From: Halichondria panicea
Lineage: Eukaryota; Porifera; Demospongiae; Suberitida; Halichondriidae
Direction of reading: 5' to 3'
Length of the DNA: 64,000 nt
NCBI RefSeq assembly: GCF_963675165.1
Contig: NC_087383.1
Location: 6,418,139-6,482,138, forward strand
Part shown: positions 9,608-64,000 of the stretch, piece after piece
Layout of the letters: each line of letters opens with the position of its first letter
Numbering within the stretch: the first letter of the stretch is position 1
Program-made: the position numbers and the translations under genes
Notes under the pieces: generated by a model
The model's input: the letters and a program-made list of their open reading frames with translations, nothing else
Database searches by the model: none
What the model was told of the DNA's origin: nothing

Positions 9608-12600
9608 GTGACAGGCTCTAGGAAAACCGGACTATTCGCACAAGCAGCACTATTGAGCTATAGACCAAAATAGAATAACAGCCAAAAATCATCAAAACAG
9701 TTTTTATTGTATATACAGTTAGTTCAAAGCTTCGTGCACCTACTAGTGAAGTTTTAAGCTGTACTTGCTTACCATAAGAGCAGGCGAGCAGTGTAAAGAC
9801 GGCCACTCAACACGCATCTTTCTTGAATAATTTTAACTTTACGTGACGTCACACGTAACGGGATTTTCCCTTGCGCAAGGGCGTATCTCAATTGCGCATG
9901 CTGCAGCTGCAATCATACTAGCTACACTTAGTATGAACAGCATGAGCTCAGGCAACGCTTCTAAAACGGCTAAGGCTATTAACGACATATTGAGGTTACC
10001 TCAAGAAGACCAAGAATCCCTGGGTGATGTCATCTCAGAATGGCTAGACCTCGAGGAGAGAGAAACCGATGGTACGTATAAAACAACACAGTAATCAAAA
10101 TGAAACAGAACAATAAAGCAATGGAAATAAAATGTAATACAAAATGCTACAATGTAGGGACTGAAGACATGGGGGATACTGACTCTAGGTTTGAGTTTGA
10201 CGAGCCCATCCTCTCGCTGCAAGGTAAGAAATAACAATTTTAGGCTTTAACTTTTAACAATTCTTGCCTTTGTTTAGGTGATGACGATGACGATGATGGC
10301 GACATTAGACATGAAACAGATCCATTGGAAGCAGCGCTTGTACGGATCTCTTCACGCACCACTGGTAACCCCTCAAGTGCTCTCGGTCCAATGGAGCTCT
10401 CTGTGATTGAAGACGAGGAGGTAACAAGTTTTGTGCGTGACACCTGTGGATGCAAACTTGCTAATGGTAGCCCCTGCTCGAAACAATTCACTGTTACTCA
10501 CATAACAAAGATGAGAATGGCCTGCAATGAACTTTCACACGACGAACTCGACATGGCTCTTTTGGGGCAAATTTCGGCCTGCACTAATCGTAGCGATGGT
10601 GTGGTGGTTGAATCTCGACACGTAGCGGCAGGGAGGAAGAACAGCTACAGCAGTTATGTCCACCAGGGGAAACCCGTGTGTACTCGGTTTTTCAGATTTA
10701 TCCATTTTGTAGGTACGTTTAGTACCTGTAAATTAAAATACACATACATAACACACGCACTAAAAATACTTGTGTGTATTTGCGTATGTATTTTTTGATA
10801 GGTATTGTGCATTTATTTTTAGCCGCGAGTACACATCCAAATCCACACGCAAACACGAACAGCGTATTTTTGTGTATGAATGTGTACTCCCGCTAAAAAT
10901 AATACAGGTACGCTTACATGAGTACACATAAAGAAATCTGTACGCACTCATTACTAACTGACGCATGACACAATTTTAGGGAAATACCGGCTCAGTACTC
11001 TCAATGCGAGTTACGAGGAAAATGGACTGTACACACGGATACACGGCAACAAGCACCGACTACCAGCTAACACTTTGTCATACGAGTGCCAAAAACTAAT
11101 GATCACCTTTGTGCTGAACTATGCTGCCCAGAATGCTCTCGTCCTACCCGGTAGAGTCCCTGGGTTCCGAAAGACTGACATCAGGTTGCTACCCTCAAGC
11201 ACCTCAAAGAGGTCAGTATGGAAACTGTACAAGGGGCAGATGGAGGCGGTGAGGGACATTGCAATGGGCTACTCTACATTTTGCAAACTGTGGAGACAGC
11301 TACTTCCCTACCTGGTTGTGACGAAGCCTATGACTGATCTGTGCTGGACCTGCCAGCAGAACAGCACAGCACTCTCTCGTGCAGTCAACACGCCACTTGC
11401 CGAGAAGAGTGCGACCCTGACAGCCTACATGGAGCATCTGGACAAAGTTCAGAAGGAGAGATCATACTACAAGACTGTATGCGACCAGTGCAGAGTGACT
11501 ATCCGCTCACACTTTGAGCAAGACGGAGAATTCACCCCACCGCCGCTGTCTTCAAACACTCCTCCGAACTCTTTGGATATCGAGAGTCATTACTCTTTCG
11601 ATTACGCTCAACAGGTAGGGATCTGTAATAATAGACATAAACATAATAATACGTGCATAATAATGTATAGTGTGTATCACTAGTATCTTGCTAAAAATGA
11701 CTGTTTTTTTATGGTTTCACAGGTACACTATCCCAGCAATCCCCTGCAACCAGGCCCCATTTACTTTTTAGTACCTCGGAAGTGCTCTTTGTTTGGGGTG
11801 TGCTGTGAGGCAATTCCCCGCCAAGTCAATTTCCTCTGTGATGAGGCGGGAAACTGTGGCAAGGGGGCAAACGTTGTGGTTAGCCAGCTTCACTACTACT
11901 TTGAGCATCATGGCCTAGGTGAGATTCAACACACACATCCCAATCAATACACACCATCCAATAATTTTTATGTGATGAAGGGACACAAACCAAAATAAAT
12001 TATCCTATTTACAGGCGAGAAGACAGTGTATTTGCATGCCGATAATTGTTCTGGACAGAACAAAAACAACACAATGGTTCAGTACCTGCTATGGCGCTCG
12101 ATGACCAACCGCCACTCTCACATCACTCTCTCATTTCTGGTAGTTGGACACACCAAATTTTTTCCGGACTGGTGCTTTGGGCTCGTCAAGAGACTGTACC
12201 GAAGGACAGTAATCGGAAGCCTTCAGGCCATCGCTGAGGTTTGTACATAAAAATCAGATTATAGGTAGCTACACAAGATAAAGAAATTGTGGTATGTAAA
12301 GGATTTTAAATAATTAAGTTCAATCAAGCCACTAAAATTAAATCGTACAAAGAGCTATTTTTATAGCACCTACGTGTAGATAGGCTCCCAAAAACATAGA
12401 ACTTAGCCAATTGTACACATTGCAGTTATAGACACATTGCAGTTATAGATTGTTATGGTAGCGGTCAATTATTAGTCAGTTTACAAAAGCCCCATTTAGC
12501 TCGTATAAATAGTAAGCCAGTAAACTGCACAATACACTTACAGGTTGACTGTACACTGTTGTTATACTTACAGGTTGTGGAGGGGTCGGCCACTTGCAAC

Positions 12601-13666
12601 AAAGCCCAGCTTGTAGTGGATAGCAATGGTGGAGTTGTGGTTCCGATGTACGACTGGGCAAGTTTCTTTGCACCAATCTTTAAGAAACTCCCAGAGATCA
12701 AGGTCACTCATCATTTCCATGTGATGTCCAGTAAGCCAGGTGTTGTTGCCACCAAGAAGCACAGCGACTCTGTGGGGAAGGAGCACAACATTCTGAAGGA
12801 TGGTGTTGAGCTGGATCAGGATGAGATGCCTTCAGAGATTGTACCCAAGGGTCTGTCACTTCAGCGGCAGTGGTACCTCTATGATAAGATCCGAGAGTTC
12901 TGCCCTGTCGCTGATCAAGACATTACGTGTCCAGAGCCATCTGCTCCACGGCCAGACAGTCGACAGCCATCTCCAGAGCCACCAGGTCCCTCCTCTCCCA
13001 GCCATCCACCCCCTGCCAAGAGGCCCAGACGCTGTGGACAGTGTGGCCAACTTGGTCACAACAAGAGGAGCTGTACTCTGGACTCTTCTCCCAGCTAGAC
13101 ATCTGTGTTACCCTCATACCCCGGTTCTTCTAAGAGCCACACATTAACAGAATAATAACCTGCGAGTAGTAGACAGGGTGTTAAAAAGCTTAAAACCCTA
13201 CGTGGCTGTCTTACAACCTAGCGCTATGACTTGCGAGTAAATTCTAACGCTCTAGACACCTAAGATTATCCTTACCTGAAGTTATTTCTTGAGAGTCTCT
13301 TCGTAGGGGACCAAGAAGTCTTTCTCTTAGCAGTCAGTTCTCTCATAAATAAAATGGATTTCAGCACATGGCCTACTAAGTATTGCGCATGCTCACGCAT
13401 ACAAACGTAGGCGGAATTTAATGACATATTCACGCATGCAAACGTAGGCGGAAACCATTCAATTTCAATGACATTTTCTAGAGGCTATTTCTCGAAATGT
13501 AAGTAACCAAGAGATCGCCTCTGACGAGGCCATAACTTGGGATCGCAAAACGCTATGGAGGTGAGAAAGGTGTCATTCTGTAGCTCTAGTAACGCCCTAT
13601 CACCTCATGTAGTTATCATAAATTGACTATCTGCGCGAAAAGTCCGGTTTTCCTAGAGCCTGTCAC
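9608..13666. mobile_element. Complete GTGACAGG-ended DNA transposon with intact gene
   Basis: A 4059-bp element. The left end begins GTGACAGGCTCTAGGAAAAC and the right end is its reverse complement; 26 terminal bases match perfectly and about 31 of 33 overall. It is flanked by ATAT on both sides (9604-9607, 13667-13670). Copy B shows the uninserted site near 45628, so the insertion is younger than the segmental duplication. It holds one seven-exon plus-strand gene (9933-13098). The 4-bp AT-rich duplication would fit several superfamilies, for example Sola-type. I cannot assign one with certainty. Confidence 0.85.
9933..13098 (+). CDS. DDE/DDD-type transposase-like protein, 7 exons, 739 aa
   Basis: Exons by GT..AG borders: 9933-10071, 10158-10223, 10278-10712, 10980-11614, 11723-11918, 12015-12238 and 12574-13098. 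These sum to 2220 nt, exactly 740 codons including the stop, with all phases compatible. The N-terminus is acidic (a run of six Asp near 10280), followed by a Cys-containing segment (DTCGCKLANGSPCSKQF). The core holds FDYAQQ (exon 4/5 junction), YLHADNCSGQNKNN (start of exon 6) and VGHTKFFPDWCFG, which I propose as the three acidic positions of an RNase-H fold. The C-terminus carries a zinc knuckle, RCGQCGQLGHNKRSC. The DNC-GQNKN motif is familiar to me from many uncharacterised invertebrate transposon proteins (DUF7869-like). A start at 9843 is also open, but 9933 (MNSMSSGN) lies nearer the conserved part. Confidence 0.75.
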
Positions 13667-21395: not shown

Positions 21396-24300
21396 TTAAT
21401 CTTGATTATACTCACATTGAGTCAAGTGCTGACAGATATCATCAGCTATCTTGTCTTTTCTCAGTCCCAGTAACAACTCCAGTAGAGCTTTGTGAGTTGC
21501 TGCGAAAGGATCGTGTCTTTTCCAGAGAATCAAACATTCAGTCATGGCTACTTGTGTTCCTTCATTACAGTACAACCTATTCACATCGGCCTGTTCTGCA
21601 GGAGTCAGTCCCATTGCACTCGAATATATCTTTACACCATCAAAATATTCGGCCAGGTAGGGAATATCGGAGTTCCCTATTTCACTATTGAGCTGCTCGT
21701 CAGTCAGACTGTATCTGCTCACTAGATCTTGAAGTGTGACTCGATTAGCAGCTGGTCCTATAATTATAGAGGTGCATATATGCGTTTATATCCTGTTCAC
21801 TCCAGTCTCTATTTCTACCTACAATTAATACAATTACATGGCAGTACATGTGCATGTATATAAATTTATATTATTTTGGTGAAGTTTTTAAGGTCAGATT
21901 CAGTATTAGAGAACTGACAAAATATGTTATACCCTAAACATAATTATAACTATTACACATTGTTAAATGAATTTAACGACATCTTACCAAGGCTCGACGG
22001 TTGTCTGACTTCATTCCTCTCCTCAATAGTCGTCTGTGTGGCTTCGTCTAATAGGAGAATCGGAAAATACAGTCGTTGATGCAATATCAGACAATTAAAC
22101 TAAAATAACATTATAATTATATATAGCCTTAATCAATTAATGATCGATAATTATTAAAAGTAACTTTCAGACGGGTATAAGCGGCAAATGGGTTTAGTGT
22201 ACTCACGTGTGCTTGGACTGGGTGACAGTTCAGTCGACTCATCAGGTTGCTGTGGCAACATGTTTTCACAAAAGAACGTAGGAGCAACACCAGCCAAAAC
22301 CTATAATCATGAGACAAAAGTTTATGGGTCTGGAAAAATACGATTAATTTTTGTCATTTTTTTGTACAAAATCCAAAAAGTTTATTACATAATTATAAGA
22401 CATGCACATAGAATTAGTTTCCATGACTTACGAGAGGGTTCTTCCCAGAGAAAACACTGAGTGGATCCAGAATCAGTCTCAATGCTCTGCAAGTGCCGTC
22501 ACCACTGTCCCTCCACACTCTCAGGGCATGCTCTAGACTGCCGCTCATTGCATGCGTGCTCTTAGCAGCCCTAGAAACAACTGAACAAACGATGTCTGAT
22601 AGTTCACGATTCTTGCTCCAACAAGATGAAAGAGCTGAGAGCAGTCCATCAGAGAGTTTCTCATCGTGTGCTGGGTCACCTTCGTTGCATAGAGCTTGTA
22701 GAATATTTTCACGGAGATCAGCGTACACCTCAGATTGCAGCAGCTCACCCACGGGTACAACTTGTGTGCTGGTGGTAGATTTAACAAATTCCTTCTGACA
22801 AGAAATGCTTTTAGCAACAGATTTCATACCAAACAATGGAGCACCAGCGATGTCAGTGGAAGGTAACAACCGTTCGTCCGTGTCTATGTTGGGGCAAAAC
22901 TCACAAGCAGCTTCAACCACTTTGTTGATAATAGTGGATCGTACATCGAGTACATCTAACGAGACCTTAGGTGCTTGTAGTTGAATAGTGACACTCTTCA
23001 TCTCCATCACCTCAACACGGACTCTAATTCCATCCTCAGTGACCCAACACACACCAGTCTTCCAGACCGAGCATTGACCTTGCAAGGCAGGATTGTCAGT
23101 GTCCACCACTGGAGCAAGACCAAGCGACAGAGACAGTCGAAGGAGAAGAACGTGAAGAAATCGAGGGTTGAAAAAATGGTCATTGTGTGCACAGGCCAGG
23201 GACCAGTTGAAACTGTACTGGAAATTAATAGTGGTAGCCATTGGTTCGCTGGAAGCTACCAATCGGATCAGTGCTGGACAGAAGATGACGCCTCCAGAGA
23301 CGGACACAGACGTTGCAGGAAGATGCTGGTCGATAAGACTGAGCACTATTTTGTCTTCAATGGGAACGGCTAGCTCGAGATGAAACAAGTATCCAATGAG
23401 CATGTCAATGTTGAAATTGGGGAAGTGTTTAGCGAGATCTGATTTTAGAACAACCCCAGTACTTGTGGAAAGCTCACAATGCTGTGTGAAATCTTCGGGA
23501 GCTAAAATGGTGCCATTTACTTCAGCCAAGAGTTTCGATTTGTCAATTACAATAAAGCTCTTTTCTGGGAAGGAAGCATTGCAAAGGAAAAGAATATGAC
23601 CTTTGTCACTGAGTTGAACACAGATCTCAACAAGTCGTGGAATGCAGCTGGTAGGCACGAAAGAAAGAACTTTTTCATCTTTTCTAGAAACTCGATCCTT
23701 CATTTTCCCTTGAACTTCTTCCAGGGTTACAGCAATCTCACCCGAGTACTTGTCAAGAAGGTGGACAAGAAACATATGAGCATTGAGGCTCACAGACAAC
23801 CGCTCTCGAATGGAAGCACAGCTAGTTTCAACAATATGCCTAAAACTCGTCATGCCATCAGAACTTGAAAAGCGACAATCCATTGAAACAAATCCAGCAA
23901 GATCAAACATCGAAAACTTTTGAATGGCTCGTACTATAATTTTCTTCTTTTGCTCCGCTTGTGTGCTTGTCACGAGATCAGCATGACTACCTACCACAAT
24001 GAGTGGTGCTTTGCCCTCCATATTGGCACACTGGTTGGCAACAATTCCCAACCAATAGGAGACGGAAGTTGCTGTGATGGTGTCGTTATTCTGGAGACCG
24101 ATTACCATGACAAAAACAGGTGGACACGTATCGACTGTATTCTTGATAATGGCAGCGTGACTGCTGTAGTAGACCTCTTGACCAGCAAAGTCATAGACCA
24201 ACACATCTCCAAAGACACGGCTCTTGAATAATCGAGGGATGATTCCGGCTGTTTTCTGGCTGACTCCATCGACTTCTTTAGGAGAGACGAAGATGTTGAC

Positions 24301-24629
24301 TAGATATGTGCGTGCTGTTGGCTCGTGTTCCATTGCTTCAATGAGAGTGCTCTTTCCTTCTCCACCGTGACCGATAACAAACATTTTCACTGGGTTTTTC
24401 AGAGGATCCTTTGAAAACAATTTACCAAGAGCTTTACGATGATTGGTATACACATCTTCGGCAGTAGCTCCGTGTTGCAACAAGAGTAGAATGATTTCCT
24501 TGTTCCCTGCAAGAAAGAGTGGTGTGTGTCCATCGTCATCTTTGATATTAGGATCACAGCCAACAACGTCATTCAAAAGATATTTCACGATTTTGGTAAC
24601 CCCATACTTGCAGGCAAGTAGAAGAACAT
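21396..24629 (-). CDS. ROCO protein: ankyrin-Roc-COR-Death, 3' exons
   Basis: Four joined exons: 24629-22432, 22300-22207, 22047-21988 and 21757-21396. The splice sites are canonical and the phases fit. The large exon starts inside an ankyrin repeat (VLLLACKYGVTKIVKYLL, then DGHTPLFLAGNKEIILLLLQ). It continues into a Roc GTPase domain with P-loop GHGGEGKST, switch-II DFAGQE and a SHAD guanine-specificity motif, followed by a COR-like region. Two small exons form a polar linker. The last exon is a Death-domain fold (VSRYSLTDEQLNSEIGNSDI .. KADD-like C-terminal helices) and ends at 21396. Such proteins couple repeat-based ligand or partner recognition to GTPase-controlled Death-domain signalling; that role is family knowledge, not shown here. 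Phase 1 at the first exon border matches the upstream ankyrin exons at 31868, 41899, 43963, 44190 and 48013, which I take as 5' parts of this gene. Confidence 0.85.
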
Positions 24630-24727
24630 CTGTAATGGAATAATCATTGAGCACCTAGCTGAAAGTACATGTATATGCAGTACTCTATAATAATATTAAC
24701 CTGATTCATTCATACAAGTTTTGGTTA

Positions 24728-51798: not shown

Positions 51799-51921
51799 GT
51801 AAGTGACATCCTGTCCAAACTGTGTGCATGCATGGGTGAAAATATTATAATTATTTTGTGCATACAATACAATCACAAAATCACGATAATGTTTAATTAT
51901 TAACAGGCACTTGCAACTGCA

Positions 51922-54900
51922 ATGGCTAAACAACCTATTCCTAAACAACCTCTTCCACTAGCATTTAATTGTGGTTACGCTCGCACAGCAATACGAACAC
52001 TGACGTTAACTAGCAAGGCTAACCACAAGGGAGTGGTACACAAAGATAAACAAAAAACCGACTTCAAGAAACTTTTTGACATACCTACCTACCAACTCCA
52101 CAGTACACTCCTCAATACACCGGAAGACAAAAACCGGTCTTATTTTGATAAAATGTGTGAAAAAGTGCACAAGCTATTTTCCAGAAGTTGGAATCCAGCA
52201 ATTAATCGTGTAAAGTATACGAACAAGTTCTCAATGGACAACTGGAAAGCTTTAGACGATTCTGAGAAAGCCGCTCACACTCTAGCTAATTGTAAAGCAT
52301 GCTTCACGAAGCATGAAAACCTTCAGAGGTCATTTCCTGCCAAGCCCGTGTACTGCATACCACCACCACTTCTAGTACTAGATGTATCTGACCAACCACA
52401 GACCAAACGGCAGGAAAAGAAGATAGGACGACAGGTACTACAAGAGCTCGACACAACCTGGAAAAAACGATTTGGTCGAAAAATAACACCAGCTCTGCCT
52501 ACGATGATGCCAGAAGCAAATTTAACACGCAAGGTTCCTAAATTAGTGAAAAAAAAGGAAGATCGAACAAGAAAACGAACCTTCGTAACCCAGGTTAATA
52601 AACAGTTTGCTAAGAATGCCACAATGACCCTACTTGCAGAAGCAGAATCAATTTCTAGCTATAAAAGGAAGAGACTATCATACTCATTTGAGACACCACC
52701 GGCACCCAAACGGCAAAAAACACATTCCCCAAACGAGGATAATTTAACTTTGGATATGAACAAAGTCATTGAAACTTTAAACAATTTTCCATCAAGTGAG
52801 AAAATTAACTGGTCGGGCATGGCTAGAAAGTTGGGAATAACGCAGCCAAATGGAGGTCAAGTACTTAAAGAAATTGCACAAAGACATGGTATAGACACAT
52901 CAAGGCTAGAGCATTCCAGTGAAACCACACCACGAACAAGGCGTAGCAAAGCTAAGCTACAAGGGAGAGAAATTTCAATGCCATGCCTCCCAACCCAAGA
53001 GATCATCAAAGATGAAAAAAAACATCTCATTGATTCTGGCGAACTATCTATAGGAGTACCATGCACTCCGTACGTACTTTCGAAGTCCATAGTTAACACT
53101 GAAGGAAACATCGAAATAAAAAAGGTTGAATTTAATGGACGCAAAATCCCTCTAACAGAACTTAGAAAAAGCCTACTAAAGAAACAAGAGACTTATATGC
53201 GAGTGACAACCTCTGATGTTAATAAGATGACAAAAGAACAGATACTGACCTTTATGGATACAGTTCATCACACACAGCACCCGGATACACCTCTCGACAA
53301 GCTCCAAACTGAACTAAAGTCTATTCAACAGACCAGAACACTTGCTATTTGGCACGACCATTCAACAATTCTACAGACTGGCTACATTCTATTTGCGGTA
53401 TGGGTAGTCTATGATTTAGCAGTATTCTTTACAGAAGCAGAGTACAAAGCAAAGACAGGAAAAAAGGTTGACAATATCCAAGCATTAATTGAAGAACCCG
53501 AGATATACATGATAGCACCTAGCAGCTCATCCCCTGTTCACCAACTAGCTTTAATTGGTGATCGCATAGAGTGCCTACATGAGTTGGCCTCACCCATTAA
53601 AACCAGCAAAGGCTTGGAAATCAAAGACAAGCTACGTTTCTTTTGTGGTGACAAGCCAGCTCAACAATTTGAAAGAGGAACTCAGATTGGCGGTACATAT
53701 AAATGTGGGGGGTGTGGTTGTAAGGATCATATGATGCAAAATCTTCCTCATGCTCTTGCACAACCTTGGCGACCCTTAGCATACCTACAAACACTGGTCA
53801 CGGCTGGAAAATATGGGAGGACACCTGGCTTATTAAAACCTATGGACTCTCTCAAGGTGAATGAGCTAAGAGAAGAGCTTCAAACCAGGGGTTTTAAGGG
53901 AACCACAGAGAATCTGAAACCTGAACTTCAAGAAAAACTGTCATCCACCTTACGAGGTGCACAAAGGGTACCCACCCTCTTAACACTTGACCCAATGCAA
54001 TCACTATCAAACATCAACCTTGAAGACTACGAAGTTCTTGATTGCGAGCCTCTTCACGATATAAAAGGACACCTTCACAACCTCCTCCCAGAAATACCAC
54101 CCCTCTTACAGGAACCACTGAAAAAAGAGTGTGAACAAATTCTACAAACTACGATACCCAAGCAAAGCGTCAGTGGAGCCGTACTTCGCTCAGCAGCCAT
54201 TAAATTACTGCTTAAGCTGCTGAAAGCTAAAGTGGATAAGCGTGTGTTAGCATTGGTTGAGACAATTGTAAGGATTTCAGAAATCCTTTACATGAGAGAA
54301 TCAAAACGTAGCCCAAAGACTGTACTACGACTATACAACTGCACCTGGCTTCACCATGAACTGTGCAATGAACTACTACCCTCTCCAAAGTTTCAGACCC
54401 TACACCACCTGTTCGGTATCTACCTACATGCTCTAACAATTCATGCTCCAATTCAACACCAGACTATGTCTCTTTTGTCTGTAAATGCAGAGAACCAGGA
54501 GCGCCTTTTCAGTCAAGCTAAACGAGTCAGCCTTCGCTCAACAAACAGAAAAACAGAAAACGTTTTACCGACTATTCTCATCAGCATTCAGGCTAGACAA
54601 AAAATGGATGACCACAAGCCTATAGCAACTAAACAAGAGGGAATAGTCAGGTCTGTGTCATCAAAGCTACCACTGTACAAGGGAACCAGTATTGACAAAG
54701 AATTTGTTACTAAACACCTAACCAGTTGGCAAGCGCACTTAAAACGCATTAGTACCTTCCTCGAACCTGGAAAAGGCACCTGGTGGCATGAAAGCAATGA
54801 AGCCTTCTTATTTCATGATTCAGACGATGACATGAATTATCGACAAGAGGGGCCAAGTCTAATGCATTTTCGAAGTGCAACACAACCTAAAGTAGAGTGC

Positions 54901-55647
54901 GAATCACTCAAAGCTTGGGAGAAAATTTTGCACAACAAGGTGGTTTTGCCAACACCTTCGATAAGAGTCTATGACGACAATGGCGACTACACGGGCACTA
55001 GACTATTCACAACAAGTGACACAAACCCAAACAGCTCAATAACATTTCCAGAGCTAACAGAATCAGAGTATGACACTATCACTCAAAATGAAGAAACAAA
55101 ACAACAGAACACCGAAGCTTCACTTCAAGAGTTTGATTCAAATCAACAGTGGAGTAACTCATCACCTATTGCTCCTTCGCTGGCTACAGATACATACCAC
55201 GAAGAAGACCCACAAGATGTAGAGGGAAGCTTAATAGACATGAATTTACATATTACAAGTAATATGGATAGTGACCCTGAGCCAATCCCTCCGACGCTTA
55301 CTTTACAGACAAAAGCTGCCAAGGCAATACTGAGAGTGACTGGGCCCAATAACAACTTAGTCGAGCTCGACTTTCTACGTCACAAATTAAAGTGCAACAA
55401 AGCACTTAAAAAACAGCCTTCTGAGACTGACAAAGAAGAGTATGCAATGCTTCTCAAACAACTCCATGATATGGTAAACTCAAGCATTAAACAGGCAATA
55501 CAAGCTATCAGAGACTATGAAACAACCCACTACCACAAGTACAATATTTTTCCTGATCAAACTAAAGAAGAGTACAAACAACTACGAAAAAAGCTTGATA
55601 ATGCAAGGAACATATACTCTATTTGGAGCACTTTCAAAATTACATAA
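51922..55647 (+). CDS. 1241-aa transposase-like protein with HTH-like, Cys-cluster and SAP-like regions
   Basis: A single uninterrupted frame, 2-3 times longer than anything else here, and richer in C and A at third positions than the flanks. The N-terminal third is basic and Cys/His poor. Residues ~279-331 look like a helix-turn-helix (KINWSGMARKLGITQPNGGQ then VLKEIAQRHGID). Residues ~477-481 are WHDHS, followed by a hydrophobic strand. Residues ~574-600 hold FFCGDKPAQQFERG and CGGCGCKDH, a likely zinc cluster. Residues ~641-677 (MDSLKVNELREELQTRGFKG) look like a SAP DNA-binding motif. Residues ~855-893 are NAENQERLFSQAKRVSLRST, whose acidic residue could complete a DDE set with Asp479 and a middle Asp. 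I recall similar GD-PA-QFE / SAP proteins as unnamed multicopy genes in cnidarians and sponges. A transposon origin is inference; no terminal repeats were found around it. Confidence 0.6.
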   Translation: MAKQPIPKQPLPLAFNCGYARTAIRTLTLTSKANHKGVVHKDKQKTDFKKLFDIPTYQLHSTLLNTPEDKNRSYFDKMCEKVHKLFSRSWNPAINRVKYTNKFSMDNWKALDDSEKAAHTLANCKACFTKHENLQRSFPAKPVYCIPPPLLVLDVSDQPQTKRQEKKIGRQVLQELDTTWKKRFGRKITPALPTMMPEANLTRKVPKLVKKKEDRTRKRTFVTQVNKQFAKNATMTLLAEAESISSYKRKRLSYSFETPPAPKRQKTHSPNEDNLTLDMNKVIETLNNFPSSEKINWSGMARKLGITQPNGGQVLKEIAQRHGIDTSRLEHSSETTPRTRRSKAKLQGREISMPCLPTQEIIKDEKKHLIDSGELSIGVPCTPYVLSKSIVNTEGNIEIKKVEFNGRKIPLTELRKSLLKKQETYMRVTTSDVNKMTKEQILTFMDTVHHTQHPDTPLDKLQTELKSIQQTRTLAIWHDHSTILQTGYILFAVWVVYDLAVFFTEAEYKAKTGKKVDNIQALIEEPEIYMIAPSSSSPVHQLALIGDRIECLHELASPIKTSKGLEIKDKLRFFCGDKPAQQFERGTQIGGTYKCGGCGCKDHMMQNLPHALAQPWRPLAYLQTLVTAGKYGRTPGLLKPMDSLKVNELREELQTRGFKGTTENLKPELQEKLSSTLRGAQRVPTLLTLDPMQSLSNINLEDYEVLDCEPLHDIKGHLHNLLPEIPPLLQEPLKKECEQILQTTIPKQSVSGAVLRSAAIKLLLKLLKAKVDKRVLALVETIVRISEILYMRESKRSPKTVLRLYNCTWLHHELCNELLPSPKFQTLHHLFGIYLHALTIHAPIQHQTMSLLSVNAENQERLFSQAKRVSLRSTNRKTENVLPTILISIQARQKMDDHKPIATKQEGIVRSVSSKLPLYKGTSIDKEFVTKHLTSWQAHLKRISTFLEPGKGTWWHESNEAFLFHDSDDDMNYRQEGPSLMHFRSATQPKVECESLKAWEKILHNKVVLPTPSIRVYDDNGDYTGTRLFTTSDTNPNSSITFPELTESEYDTITQNEETKQQNTEASLQEFDSNQQWSNSSPIAPSLATDTYHEEDPQDVEGSLIDMNLHITSNMDSDPEPIPPTLTLQTKAAKAILRVTGPNNNLVELDFLRHKLKCNKALKKQPSETDKEEYAMLLKQLHDMVNSSIKQAIQAIRDYETTHYHKYNIFPDQTKEEYKQLRKKLDNARNIYSIWSTFKIT

Positions 55648-60300: not shown

Positions 60301-60372
60301 ATGCAGACTGTTATATACATCGTAAAATAATAGTGATCACTACTATTTTACGATGTATAATACAGTCTGCAT
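60301..60372. repeat. 33-bp-arm hairpin
   Basis: ATGCAGACTGTTATATACAT .. pairs with .. ATGTATAATACAGTCTGCAT around a TGATCA centre, with about three mismatches in 33 positions. Non-coding. Lies 90 bp outside the proposed Kolobok terminus. Confidence 0.85.
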
Positions 60373-60688
60373 ATGGAACTTACCAGTTACTTCAGACTTC
60401 CTTTGGCCCTATACCCCTATATATAATTTGGCAAGCAAACCCCTCCTGATATAATCTTTAAAGGGAGGGTGACACGAAAAAATCAACTTTTTTATTTTTG
60501 CATAAATGTGTTCTGTTTGGGACCCAGATGCATGTTATAAAGATTGAAATATTTTAATTAATTATTGATGAAGTTACAGAAGGTTTAGTGGGGCAGATTT
60601 AGCATCCTGTCTAATGGACTTCCTGTTGTGGTTGAATGTGGGCGCGGCTACTATGTGATGTCATAAAAGGAACAGTAGTGTAGCAACT

Positions 60689-61457
60689 ATGAGTTCAAGC
60701 AGTGATGACAGTGGTAGTTCTAGTGTTCTAAGCCTCTCTTGTTCAGTGTCTTCTGTTGAAAGTGATGTGTCAGAAGTTTCAGAACATGGAAGTAATTAAG
60801 AAACAATTGAGCCCTACAGATTTGAGCCTGAAGAGAGTGACACACCATTAGACACTGAAGAGACAGAACCAGGAGGAGCGGAAGACAGTGATGATGATGA
60901 TGATGACTCTGAAGGTGAAGAGAGACTCCTCAACAGAGATTGGTATGCATGTGCTTCATACAAAAACGCACATAAACAAGCATGTAATCTATTCAGGTGT
61001 CAGTGTGGAAACTGTGTTATAATGCCAACGGGAAGAGAGTGTGTATGTTGCTGTGAAGTGGAAAGTGTCGTAGAGAAGAAGGAAGAAAATCATACTGATA
61101 TAAGTTGCATAACTGACCATGAAGGATTCACACCGGTGTGCCTCGATGTGTGGGTACTTCAAACAGCATACTCTAACTATAGATATCATTATGGTGATCC
61201 TGAAGAGAAGCACATCCATGAGTAAGTGTTACTGTGTATATAATTATAAGCCATGAAATAATATTATTTTCTTCGTACAATGTAGGCGTTACCGTTTCAT
61301 TGCTTATCGGCAACTTGCTGGTTGGTGTTGGGGATGGCTTGGTCGGAAAATGAGGGTAGTACTACCAAGCTGCGCTGTAAACCGAATCAGGACAAGTTTC
61401 CCTTCTGCTAACTATGCTGGATTTAAGTATCCACAAGTGTCAAATTCAACAACATAA
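60689..61457 (+). pseudogene. P2X7-type C-terminal (ballast) domain protein, one in-frame stop
   Basis: Exon 1 is 60689-61221 (donor GTAAGT) and exon 2 is 61286-61457 (acceptor AATGTAG), phase-compatible and ending in TAA. The N-terminus is a Ser-rich tract (MSSSSDDSGSSSVLSLSCSV), then EPYRFEPEESD and an Asp-rich stretch. The conserved part has CQCGNCVIMPTGRECVCCCE, CITDHEGFTPVCLDVWVLQT, RYRFIAYRQLAGWCWGWLGR and VVLPSCAVNRIRTSFPS followed by YAGFKYP. This is the cysteine-rich zinc and nucleotide-binding cytoplasmic domain of P2X7 receptors, here without any channel part. Codon 37 is TAA (60797-60799), and no ATG lies between it and the conserved domain. The copy is therefore broken unless the base is a sequencing error or read-through occurs. 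Confidence 0.8.
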
Positions 61458-61737
61458 ATATAAATTGTCATACGTACATGAAAAATGTGAACAAATGTAT
61501 ACTTAATGGTCAGGGGTGATGAATCTGTTTGGTGCTGAGCAATGGCAATCGATTTTTCTGGTTTTACAAAATCACTACTTAGGCTGGTAGGTATCAGTGA
61601 AGATCCAGTAGAGGATGATGCACCACCGTTGTCAGAACACAGTGACAATGTTTCCTTCACTAATTCATCGATGTATCCTATAAAAGAACATGCATATATA
61701 CATCATTATTCTGGCATATATACGTGTCCCACCATAA

Positions 61738-64000
61738 TTATGTTGGATTTTCGACAACTTTTCGGACTATGTAGCCACCCTTCTTATATTTGGGAAACAC
61801 GATGTCATACCTCTCCTCGCCCCTTTTGGTCACAGCCTGCTTTCGATTGGCATTCTCATTAAAATGTAGTGCTGCTACCTGCAACCTGTATAATTATATA
61901 ATTATAAGATAGGTAATTAGGCAAAGATAAACCATGTAAACAATTGTATGGCTAACCTGCAGTGCATTCCTTGGTACGAAAATGCGGTTGACTTAGGGGC
62001 AAAGTGTATGACCACACTATGGAACGCTTCGAGTGAAGATGTTTGATACATAGGTGAAAGTTTAGCTACATCTTTACACACTCTAGGATTTGTCAGCAGA
62101 GGCGATAGTTTTTCACTGGCTTTAGTGTCTGTATATATAGCATGTAACACAATTATAATAGATATGTATATACTGCCAAACATTTATTACAGTATCACTT
62201 ACGTCTTTTAAACCACTTTTTGTTTCTTTTTCGTCCAACAAGCCTGCGATGACTACACTTTCGAAAGAGTTGTCCATGTCCAGAGTGCTTATTGTGAATA
62301 TGGTTATCTAATGATAACCATTTGGCTACCATTACATCTCCTTTGCAATCGGGGGTGGATGCAACACACCAATACATGTGGTTGGTAATGCTTTGTTCCC
62401 ATTTGCCCACAAGCTCACAATCTTTTGTTTTGGCTAAGGCTTTCAACTTTTTACGAAGCCCTGCATAATATGTAATGATATAATTATAGCATTTATCTAA
62501 CTATACCATAATTATTTACCTTTCACAACATGCCATATGTCAAAGTAGTGCTTGATGTCAGGGTTCTGCTCCCTTATGAACTTAGCTATCTGTTGATGTC
62601 TATCTGTGACCAACGTCCCCACTTTGATACCTTTCTTCTTCAAAAATTCTAACACTCGTATAAGACCTTCTTTCTCCATGTGGTTGCTACTAGCAACTTC
62701 ATTGCTCTGTAGTGCATGCAGGTCATCAATACATATAAATACATATACATGTACCTGAACCAATTTGAAGTCAACTATCTTGTTGCAGTTTAGCTCCAGG
62801 ACTGAATAAGAACCATACTTTGCACTGTGACCAGGACTATCTGATCGTCCGTCTCCAGCTAGCACTAGCGGTTTTCCTTTCTTTTTTAGTGACATCAATA
62901 GGGACTTCTGATTTTGCTTCCAAACGTTATCAATTGCAGGTTGAAGGTATTTGCTTTGATGGCGAAAAAAAGTTCTTCTAGTGATTGCAGCGACATTTAG
63001 GATCTTGAAGATGTGAAGAGCTTTAGATGGGAATGCTCCAGAGTAGAGAATGGCAGCTGACATAAGTATATTTCCAAGGGGAATGTTGCACACATAAGGC
63101 TGGCTATCCCATACACGTTTCTTGCGGCAATGTCTGCATGTCTGAACAATTCGTAAGAAAGAACCAAAAACCACCTTCTTAATGACGGCACTCTTTCCAC
63201 AATAGAAACAGGACACAAACAGTAGCAAAAGGGAAGATTCCGATACCATGTAGAAAGTATCTCCGTTTGGTCTGTGTTGGTCATTACAAGGCTCAATCGT
63301 CCCATCAGTCGTCTCATCAGAACTACATACCAGGTACATACAAACATAAGTATAATCATACAACTCTACTTACGATTCTTGATATGTTCCTGTTGATGTA
63401 CTCATGTCAATAGAACACTCAGAATCAGATGTAGGACATCTCCTTGGAGTAGATTCAAACAAGGGCACATCGAGAACACATTGTACACCCGCTTCTGCTG
63501 TTTGGGGATTTACTTGTGTGAGATTACATTGCACTTCAGCATCTTGAAATAGTGGTGTGACCTTGACTTGTATTTCTAGAGTAATAGAAACACTTCACTG
63601 TATAATTGTTATTGGCCATAGAATCTCTTACCTTTGGTGCTTGTTTTTGGCAATACTTGAGTACGCACATTTCTTTGGCTAACTTGAACACAGGCTTGCA
63701 CTGATACATGGTTGTATTTAGGACTAGGTTCATCATCTGATTCGACTTCAGCAGAAGCCTCACTGACAGTTGGAAGGTGTGAGGGTCCAGCAATAATTTG
63801 ATTGACAATCTGGTTAAGCTTACAAAATGCAAGGATTAACAAAATGCAAGGATTAACAGCACCTTTACCTCATGCCGTTGCCTTTTCTCTACAACTCCTC
63901 TTCTTCCGATGCCACTCCCTTCTGCTCTTCTCTTATGACCAATTTCGTGATCTGTTTGGGGTGATCGATGAAATATTGTTGGGACACTTTCAGGTTTCAG
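61738..64000 (-). CDS. THAP-DDE transposase, Kolobok type (5' end off window)
   Basis: Exons (minus strand): >64000-63869, 63809-63632, 63575-63374, 63322-62755, 62706-62520, 62460-62203, 62128-61957 and about 61892-61738. Borders are GT..AG with compatible phases. The first visible exon begins LKPESVPTIFHR, which matches the AVPTIF box closing a THAP zinc-finger domain. The catalytic core shows GDGRSDSPGHSAKYGSYSVL (first Asp), VGTLVTDRHQQIAKFI (second Asp), FDIWHVVK (the D-x2-H signature of the hAT/MULE/Kolobok/P group) and SSLEAFHSVVIHFAPKS (Glu). CxxC pairs (CFYCGK, CRHCRKK) lie before the core. The frame reaches TAA at 61738. Alternatively it may splice to a further exon near 61683 (GYIDELVKETLSLCSDNGGA), which would overlap the 3' end of the convergent gene. 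No inactivating change is seen in the visible part. Confidence 0.85.

Follow-up and report, generated by a model that had tools for sequence, protein, structure and literature searches.

A ballast-domain gene and a THAP-DDE transposase gene share the ends of a Kolobok-type transposon in the sponge Halichondria panicea

Kolobok transposases usually carry DDE, THAP, and H2CH motifs (PMC6004289), and the ends of Kolobok elements are given as 5'-RR, in contrast to those of piggyBac (Kojima and Bao 2022, PMC9587614). One lineage, Kol0, of the Kolobok-1_XT type, encodes a second protein beside the transposase, KolX, which resembles the cytoplasmic ballast of P2X7; the same paper gives vertebrates, annelids, cnidarians, and sponges as its range and derives P2X7 from a P2X4-like gene fused with KolX. 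The ballast domain had been described as an ancient animal module whose invertebrate genes are linked to two conserved neighbors (Rump et al. 2020, PMC7016195), an account in whose main text the stem "transpos" does not occur. The function of the zinc and guanine-nucleotide sites in the P2X7 tail was still called unknown in 2023 (PMC9859053). Within the literature searched, KolX, P2X7, and Kolobok are linked in PMC9587614 only. The pairing of a ballast gene with a Kolobok transposon is not new, having been in print since 2022 (PMC9587614); the additions made here are an empty site, a census of one genome, and weak evidence of purifying selection, which put the published assignment of ballast-domain genes to Kolobok transposons to the test across a whole genome.

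The window, the whole stretch of DNA analyzed, comprises 64,000 nucleotides of the Halichondria panicea genome (NC_087383.1, positions 6,418,139 to 6,482,138). Its bases 60458-64000 very probably represent the leftmost 3.5 kb of a Kolobok DNA transposon of the Kol0 type, in a copy about 4 kb long. With Kol0 as described in PMC9587614 it shares a transposase, a protein of the ballast fold, TTAA duplication, 5'-RR ends, and a sponge host, a group within the described range. Set against that paper's description rather than against Repbase sequences, it differs in that its inverted ends are its own, 215 bp long, and that it is accompanied by derivatives with internal deletions. Nothing found sets it apart in kind from Kol0, and the element represents a further family.

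The left copy of the duplicated target site is the TTAA at 60458-60461, and TTAA also stands at both ends of three further copies, L002, L003, and L004. Directly after it, at 60462, begins AGGGAGGGTGACACG. The left terminal inverted repeat (60462-60672, plus strand) measures 215 bp counting the TTAA, since L001 197-411, in the locus of the window copy, aligns with the inverse of L002 4221-4007 at 98.6%. AGGG is found at both element ends, in agreement with the 5'-RR ... YY-3' form of Kolobok. The 4-bp TTAA duplication, likewise a Kolobok character, is readable on the left side only for the window copy; the assembly is N from the base after window position 64000 (L001 3740-8001), and the right end falls within these Ns, where it is unreadable. 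A 72-bp palindrome (92%) at window 60301-60372 adjoins the element on its left.

Two convergent genes follow the left end. The KolX gene lies on the plus strand, with exon 1 at 60689-61221, a 64-bp GT...AG intron read from the sequence at 61222-61285, and exon 2 at 61286-61457, which runs from RYRFIAYRQLAGW up to the stop. Both exons are supported by Pfam P2RX7_C, which the window product matches with an E value of 1.5e-11 (45 bits; cut-off, 23.5), and four distinct P2X7 sequences of the PDB are matched as well, the best with an E value of 1.5e-06. The alignment pairs five cysteines (CQC, GNC, CIT, PSC), and a CVCCC cluster of KolX lies near the CC pair of P2X7, although the aligner left it unpaired. 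Arginines of KolX pair with R546 and R578 of P2X7, so that the five cysteines and these two arginines are common to KolX and the P2X7 ballast treated, along with nanor, in PMC7016195, whereas the partners of H547, R574, and K583 differ, as that paper reports for invertebrates. Unlike the P2X7 ballast, KolX stands alone inside a transposon and is not fused to a channel. Its frame in the window copy is interrupted by an in-frame TAA at codon 37 (60797-60799); L002 has no stop there, and its KolX frame is open over 234 residues. As judged from sequence, then, a predicted KolX with a ballast domain lies inside the shared ends, as is described for Kol0.

The transposase gene lies on the minus strand and enters the window from its right edge. 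The visible part of the THAP exon (63869-64000) holds the end of the domain from an ESVPTIF box onward, the remainder lying beyond the window; in L002 the THAP domain is complete and matches Pfam THAP with an E value of 6.9e-21. Exon 2 (63632-63809) and exon 3 (63374-63575) were obtained by conceptual splicing. Exon 4 (62755-63322), located by Pfam search and in-frame reading, carries the first catalytic D (62851-62853), and exon 5 (62520-62706), also read in frame, carries the second D (62602-62604) and the DxxH motif (62530-62541). The 48-bp intron before exon 5 (62707-62754) is open in frame too and may be unspliced. When these five exons, the first truncated by the window end, are joined at GT-AG, the reading is free of stops past DxxH; the later exons were delimited by eye. 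Exon 6 (62203-62461) contains a candidate H2CH zinc finger, an H/H/C/H stretch read by eye between DxxH and the catalytic E; exon 7 (61957-62128) holds that E (62028-62030), and the 3' exons fall approximately within 61500-61885. The residues thus form a DDE core with the C/DxxH motif of Kolobok between the second D and the E. A 285-aa exon of the gene matches Pfam Mutator with an E value of 1.3e-07 (31.4 bits; cut-off, 26.5) and MULE below the cut-off.

The first-pass annotation, made from the window alone, had described a TTAA-bounded junction followed by two facing genes, one with a ballast domain and the other with an AVPTIF-like THAP box and a D, D(2)H, E core. All of this reads as claimed, with KolX on the plus strand and the transposase on the minus strand, except for two corrections: the ballast gene has a stop at codon 37, and the right terminus is unreadable because only N follows window base 64000.

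How much of this unit moves together can be read from L002 (C7:4019637-4023620), 2.46 Mb from the window copy, where two matches of the end query face each other (C7:4019636 and C7:4023620). Between its TTAAs, one at each side, lie 3,976 bp with both genes inside, and its ends form a 215-bp inverted repeat of 98.6%. Over the 3,544 readable bases of the window copy, the unread end being left out of the count, the two copies differ by 14 single-base substitutions and 11 gaps, an identity of about 99.6% over aligned bases or of 97.9% in the BLAST count, which includes gaps. The 100-base flanks of L002, joined with one TTAA, match C7:3879792-3879991 over query positions 1-204 of 204 at 97%, and at this site the alignment has a single TTAA and the element is absent. 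A second empty site belongs to the deleted copy L003, whose joined flanks align with a neighboring repeat over 457 columns at 88.6%, again without the element but with TTA where TTAA is expected. The exact empty-site test of L010, a copy sitting in a tandem repeat, recovered nothing but the copy's own flank beside the insertion and is not counted. Both ends of L002, its flanking TTAAs, and its empty site show that the two genes were inserted as one unit. The earlier proposal, a Kolobok-type element in which a ballast gene and a THAP-DDE transposase gene converge, is therefore upheld: in L002, the right terminus lies beyond both genes and not between them, and the only other transposase core found (1 of 1) has the ballast gene inside its element.

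Neither of the two-gene copies has both frames intact as read. In the window copy KolX is interrupted, while L002 lacks 11 bp of transposase exon 6 (window 62290-62300), a frameshift in or beside the candidate H2CH finger. The window copy in turn has four bases (61735-61738) that are absent from L002 and that place a stop before its last transposase exon unless splicing differs. With at least one broken frame in each, no complete working element is seen among the copies that carry both genes.

A protein search of the genome with the ballast sequence, which scores the best candidates only (30 of 30 scored), gave at least 27 matches at at least 20 places; both numbers are minima, and the search may have overlooked a distant ballast gene lying outside units of this kind. 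The 20 places are the window copy, L002 to L006, and 14 members of a second family. At least one Kolobok-type end was found at every one of them: both ends at 17 of the 20, one end at 2 (L005 and L006), plus the window copy. A transposase core was found at just 2 of the 20, the window copy and L002.

L003 and L004 are 1.94-kb copies with the same ends as the window copy; they lack approximately window bases 61614-63624, and KolX is frameshifted in both. L005 and L006 are decayed, and their ballast frames have internal stops. N-terminal remains of the transposase persist in several deleted copies. The end query (151 bases taken from the element end) had 11 matches in the genome, which speaks against a chance likeness, 8 of them at the window copy (1), L002 (2), L003 (2), L004 (2), and L006 (1). 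Two more lie at a remnant without a ballast match (L016, C7:5333435-5333951), and the last lies on C11 (L017), where the transposase N-terminus is present and a ballast match absent.

Nine of the 14 places of the second family were retrieved as sequence (L007 to L015). These elements are about 1.94 to 1.96 kb long (for example, C5:6051380-6053327); seven of the eight other retrieved copies are 98.2 to 98.5% identical to L007, and L014 is 95.1% identical. Their two ends are inverse to each other at about 85%, and TTAA stands on both sides in eight of the nine, one side of L007 not being TTAA. The five remaining places were seen by their ends alone, which point toward each other across 1.95 to 2.08 kb. 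The ballast match at all 14 places covers query residues 110 to 188 of 197 only, past the CQCGNC stretch (67-72), and no CQCGNC-like stretch was seen when L007 was read by eye in six frames. A genome search with the transposase of the first family found no core that belongs to the second. The second family is a recently amplified, non-autonomous, Kolobok-like group with a partial ballast sequence; some of its copies also retain a remnant of THAP. Where the deleted copies were read, they have spread without working genes of their own.

The Pfam profile searches missed copies already known. P2RX7_C had only 2 matches in the genome, both to exon 2 in the full copies, against 27 by protein, so distant ballast genes could escape both kinds of search. 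Pfam Mutator had 26 matches, all of them away from the ballast places, and missed both known transposase copies as well; those 26 matches therefore do not measure how many Kolobok transposases lack KolX. In 14 control genomes, the P2RX7_C, Mutator, and P2X_receptor searches gave no match. One scan of viral contigs with a single KolX protein, a search able to detect only close relatives, yielded 3 pattern matches that were not confirmed.

If KolX serves the element, its sequence should bear traces of constraint. Ratios of dN/dS were computed in Nei-Gojobori style with our own script, taking the open KolX of L002 as reference, and are 0.42 for L003, 0.48 for L004, 0.54 for L005, 0.73 for L006, and 0.45 for L007 (97 codons); a ratio is lacking for the window copy, whose single change is non-synonymous. 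When changes per site were compared by Fisher tests, the p values were 0.067 (L003), 0.10 (L005), 0.60 (L006), and 0.004 (L007), one of the four being below 0.05, and 0.013 for L003, L005, and L006 pooled; L007 was kept out of the pool, and L004 was omitted because it nearly duplicates L003. These p values are a guide only, as the L002 branch is common to all pairs, broken copies are among them, and the local alignments that paired the codons were uninspected. The direction of dN/dS agrees with, and weakly favors, purifying selection on KolX in the source elements.

Against such a role it may be held that KolX is a ballast gene captured by chance, which rides in the element and does nothing in transposition. 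Searches for the transposase core gave no match at 18 of the 20 ballast places, the deleted copies that were read (L003 to L007) have broken or partial ballast frames, and two dN/dS tests come nowhere near significance. Moreover, the near-identity of seven of eight second-family copies to L007, with matches confined in all 14 places to the residues given above, indicates that these copies spread although none had its own intact ballast gene. Yet the deleted copies lack the transposase too and must be moved in trans, which leaves a KolX acting in trans untouched by the argument. The dN/dS ratio is below 1 in five of six comparisons, the sixth having no synonymous change, and a neutral passenger would hardly survive across the vertebrates, annelids, cnidarians, and sponges in which PMC9587614 places Kol0. 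We consider chance capture unlikely.

That a Kolobok inserted by chance into a ballast gene belonging to the host has scarcely any probability. PMC7016195 does treat such genes as ancient animal genes with two conserved invertebrate neighbors, but the ballast match is enclosed by both ends at 17 of the 20 places found, and in L002 the gene lies inside both ends and the empty site lacks the whole unit, which rejects the explanation for that copy. A piggyBac identity, with which the TTAA duplication would accord, is the least probable and is rejected, since the ends are AGGG, of the 5'-RR form by which PMC9587614 sets Kolobok apart from piggyBac, and the Mutator match (with MULE below the cut-off), the DxxH motif, and the THAP domain are contrary to it as well.

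The remaining reading, an accessory gene carried by the transposon, can be put in mechanistic terms. In the Kolobok family, THAP domains bind the element ends and the DDE core performs cut-and-paste chemistry. The transposase would accordingly bind the long inverted ends through its THAP domain, and its catalytic core would cut the element and paste it into TTAA sites. Complete copies would in addition make KolX, a stand-alone ballast-domain protein, from the convergent gene, and KolX would act in trans, most likely in the assembly or control of the transposase-DNA complex. We lean toward KolX being a trans-acting accessory of the transposase.

The P element transposase offers a comparison, as it also joins a THAP end-binding domain to an RNase H type catalytic core (PMC7776569); it has its own GTP-binding insertion, whereas here the ballast protein is encoded separately. 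By analogy, KolX might supply in trans the guanine-nucleotide cofactor function that is built into the P element transposase. If so, a THAP-type transposase would depend on a partner protein to sense GTP/GDP or make use of it, and the P2X7 ballast would owe its nucleotide site to a former part in assembling transpososomes. Among the five GDP contacts of the rat protein in PMC7016195, only R546 and R578 pair with arginine in KolX, which speaks against this, and we think it very unlikely.

What does the census imply for P2X7? Seven exon matches to P2X_receptor were found in the genome, four of them over the cut-off, at C8:4263715-4272908 (4.26-4.27 Mb). None of the 20 ballast places has such a match, and the nearest ballast place on C8 is about 0.4 Mb away. 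The P2X channel gene and the ballast copies are separate in this genome, and no fusion of the P2X7 type is seen. The census and the clean empty site support a mobile source for the P2X7 tail, and the spread of the ballast domain by a transposon with later fusion to a P2X gene, as the first-pass annotation proposed and as PMC9587614 had already published, is compatible with the data. They also suggest that the function of the zinc and guanine-nucleotide sites in that tail be looked for in transposition.

The window holds other long frames outside the element. Three of them lie on one strand at 10244-13098; none matches Pfam over the cut-off, and in the last a CCHC-like knuckle can be made out by eye. 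A 746-codon frame at 22414-24654 has ankyrin repeats and a Roc match just under the cut-off. At 51904-55647, one frame stays open for 1,247 codons; its only Pfam match, to SAP, is below threshold, and it is perhaps a gene of another mobile element.
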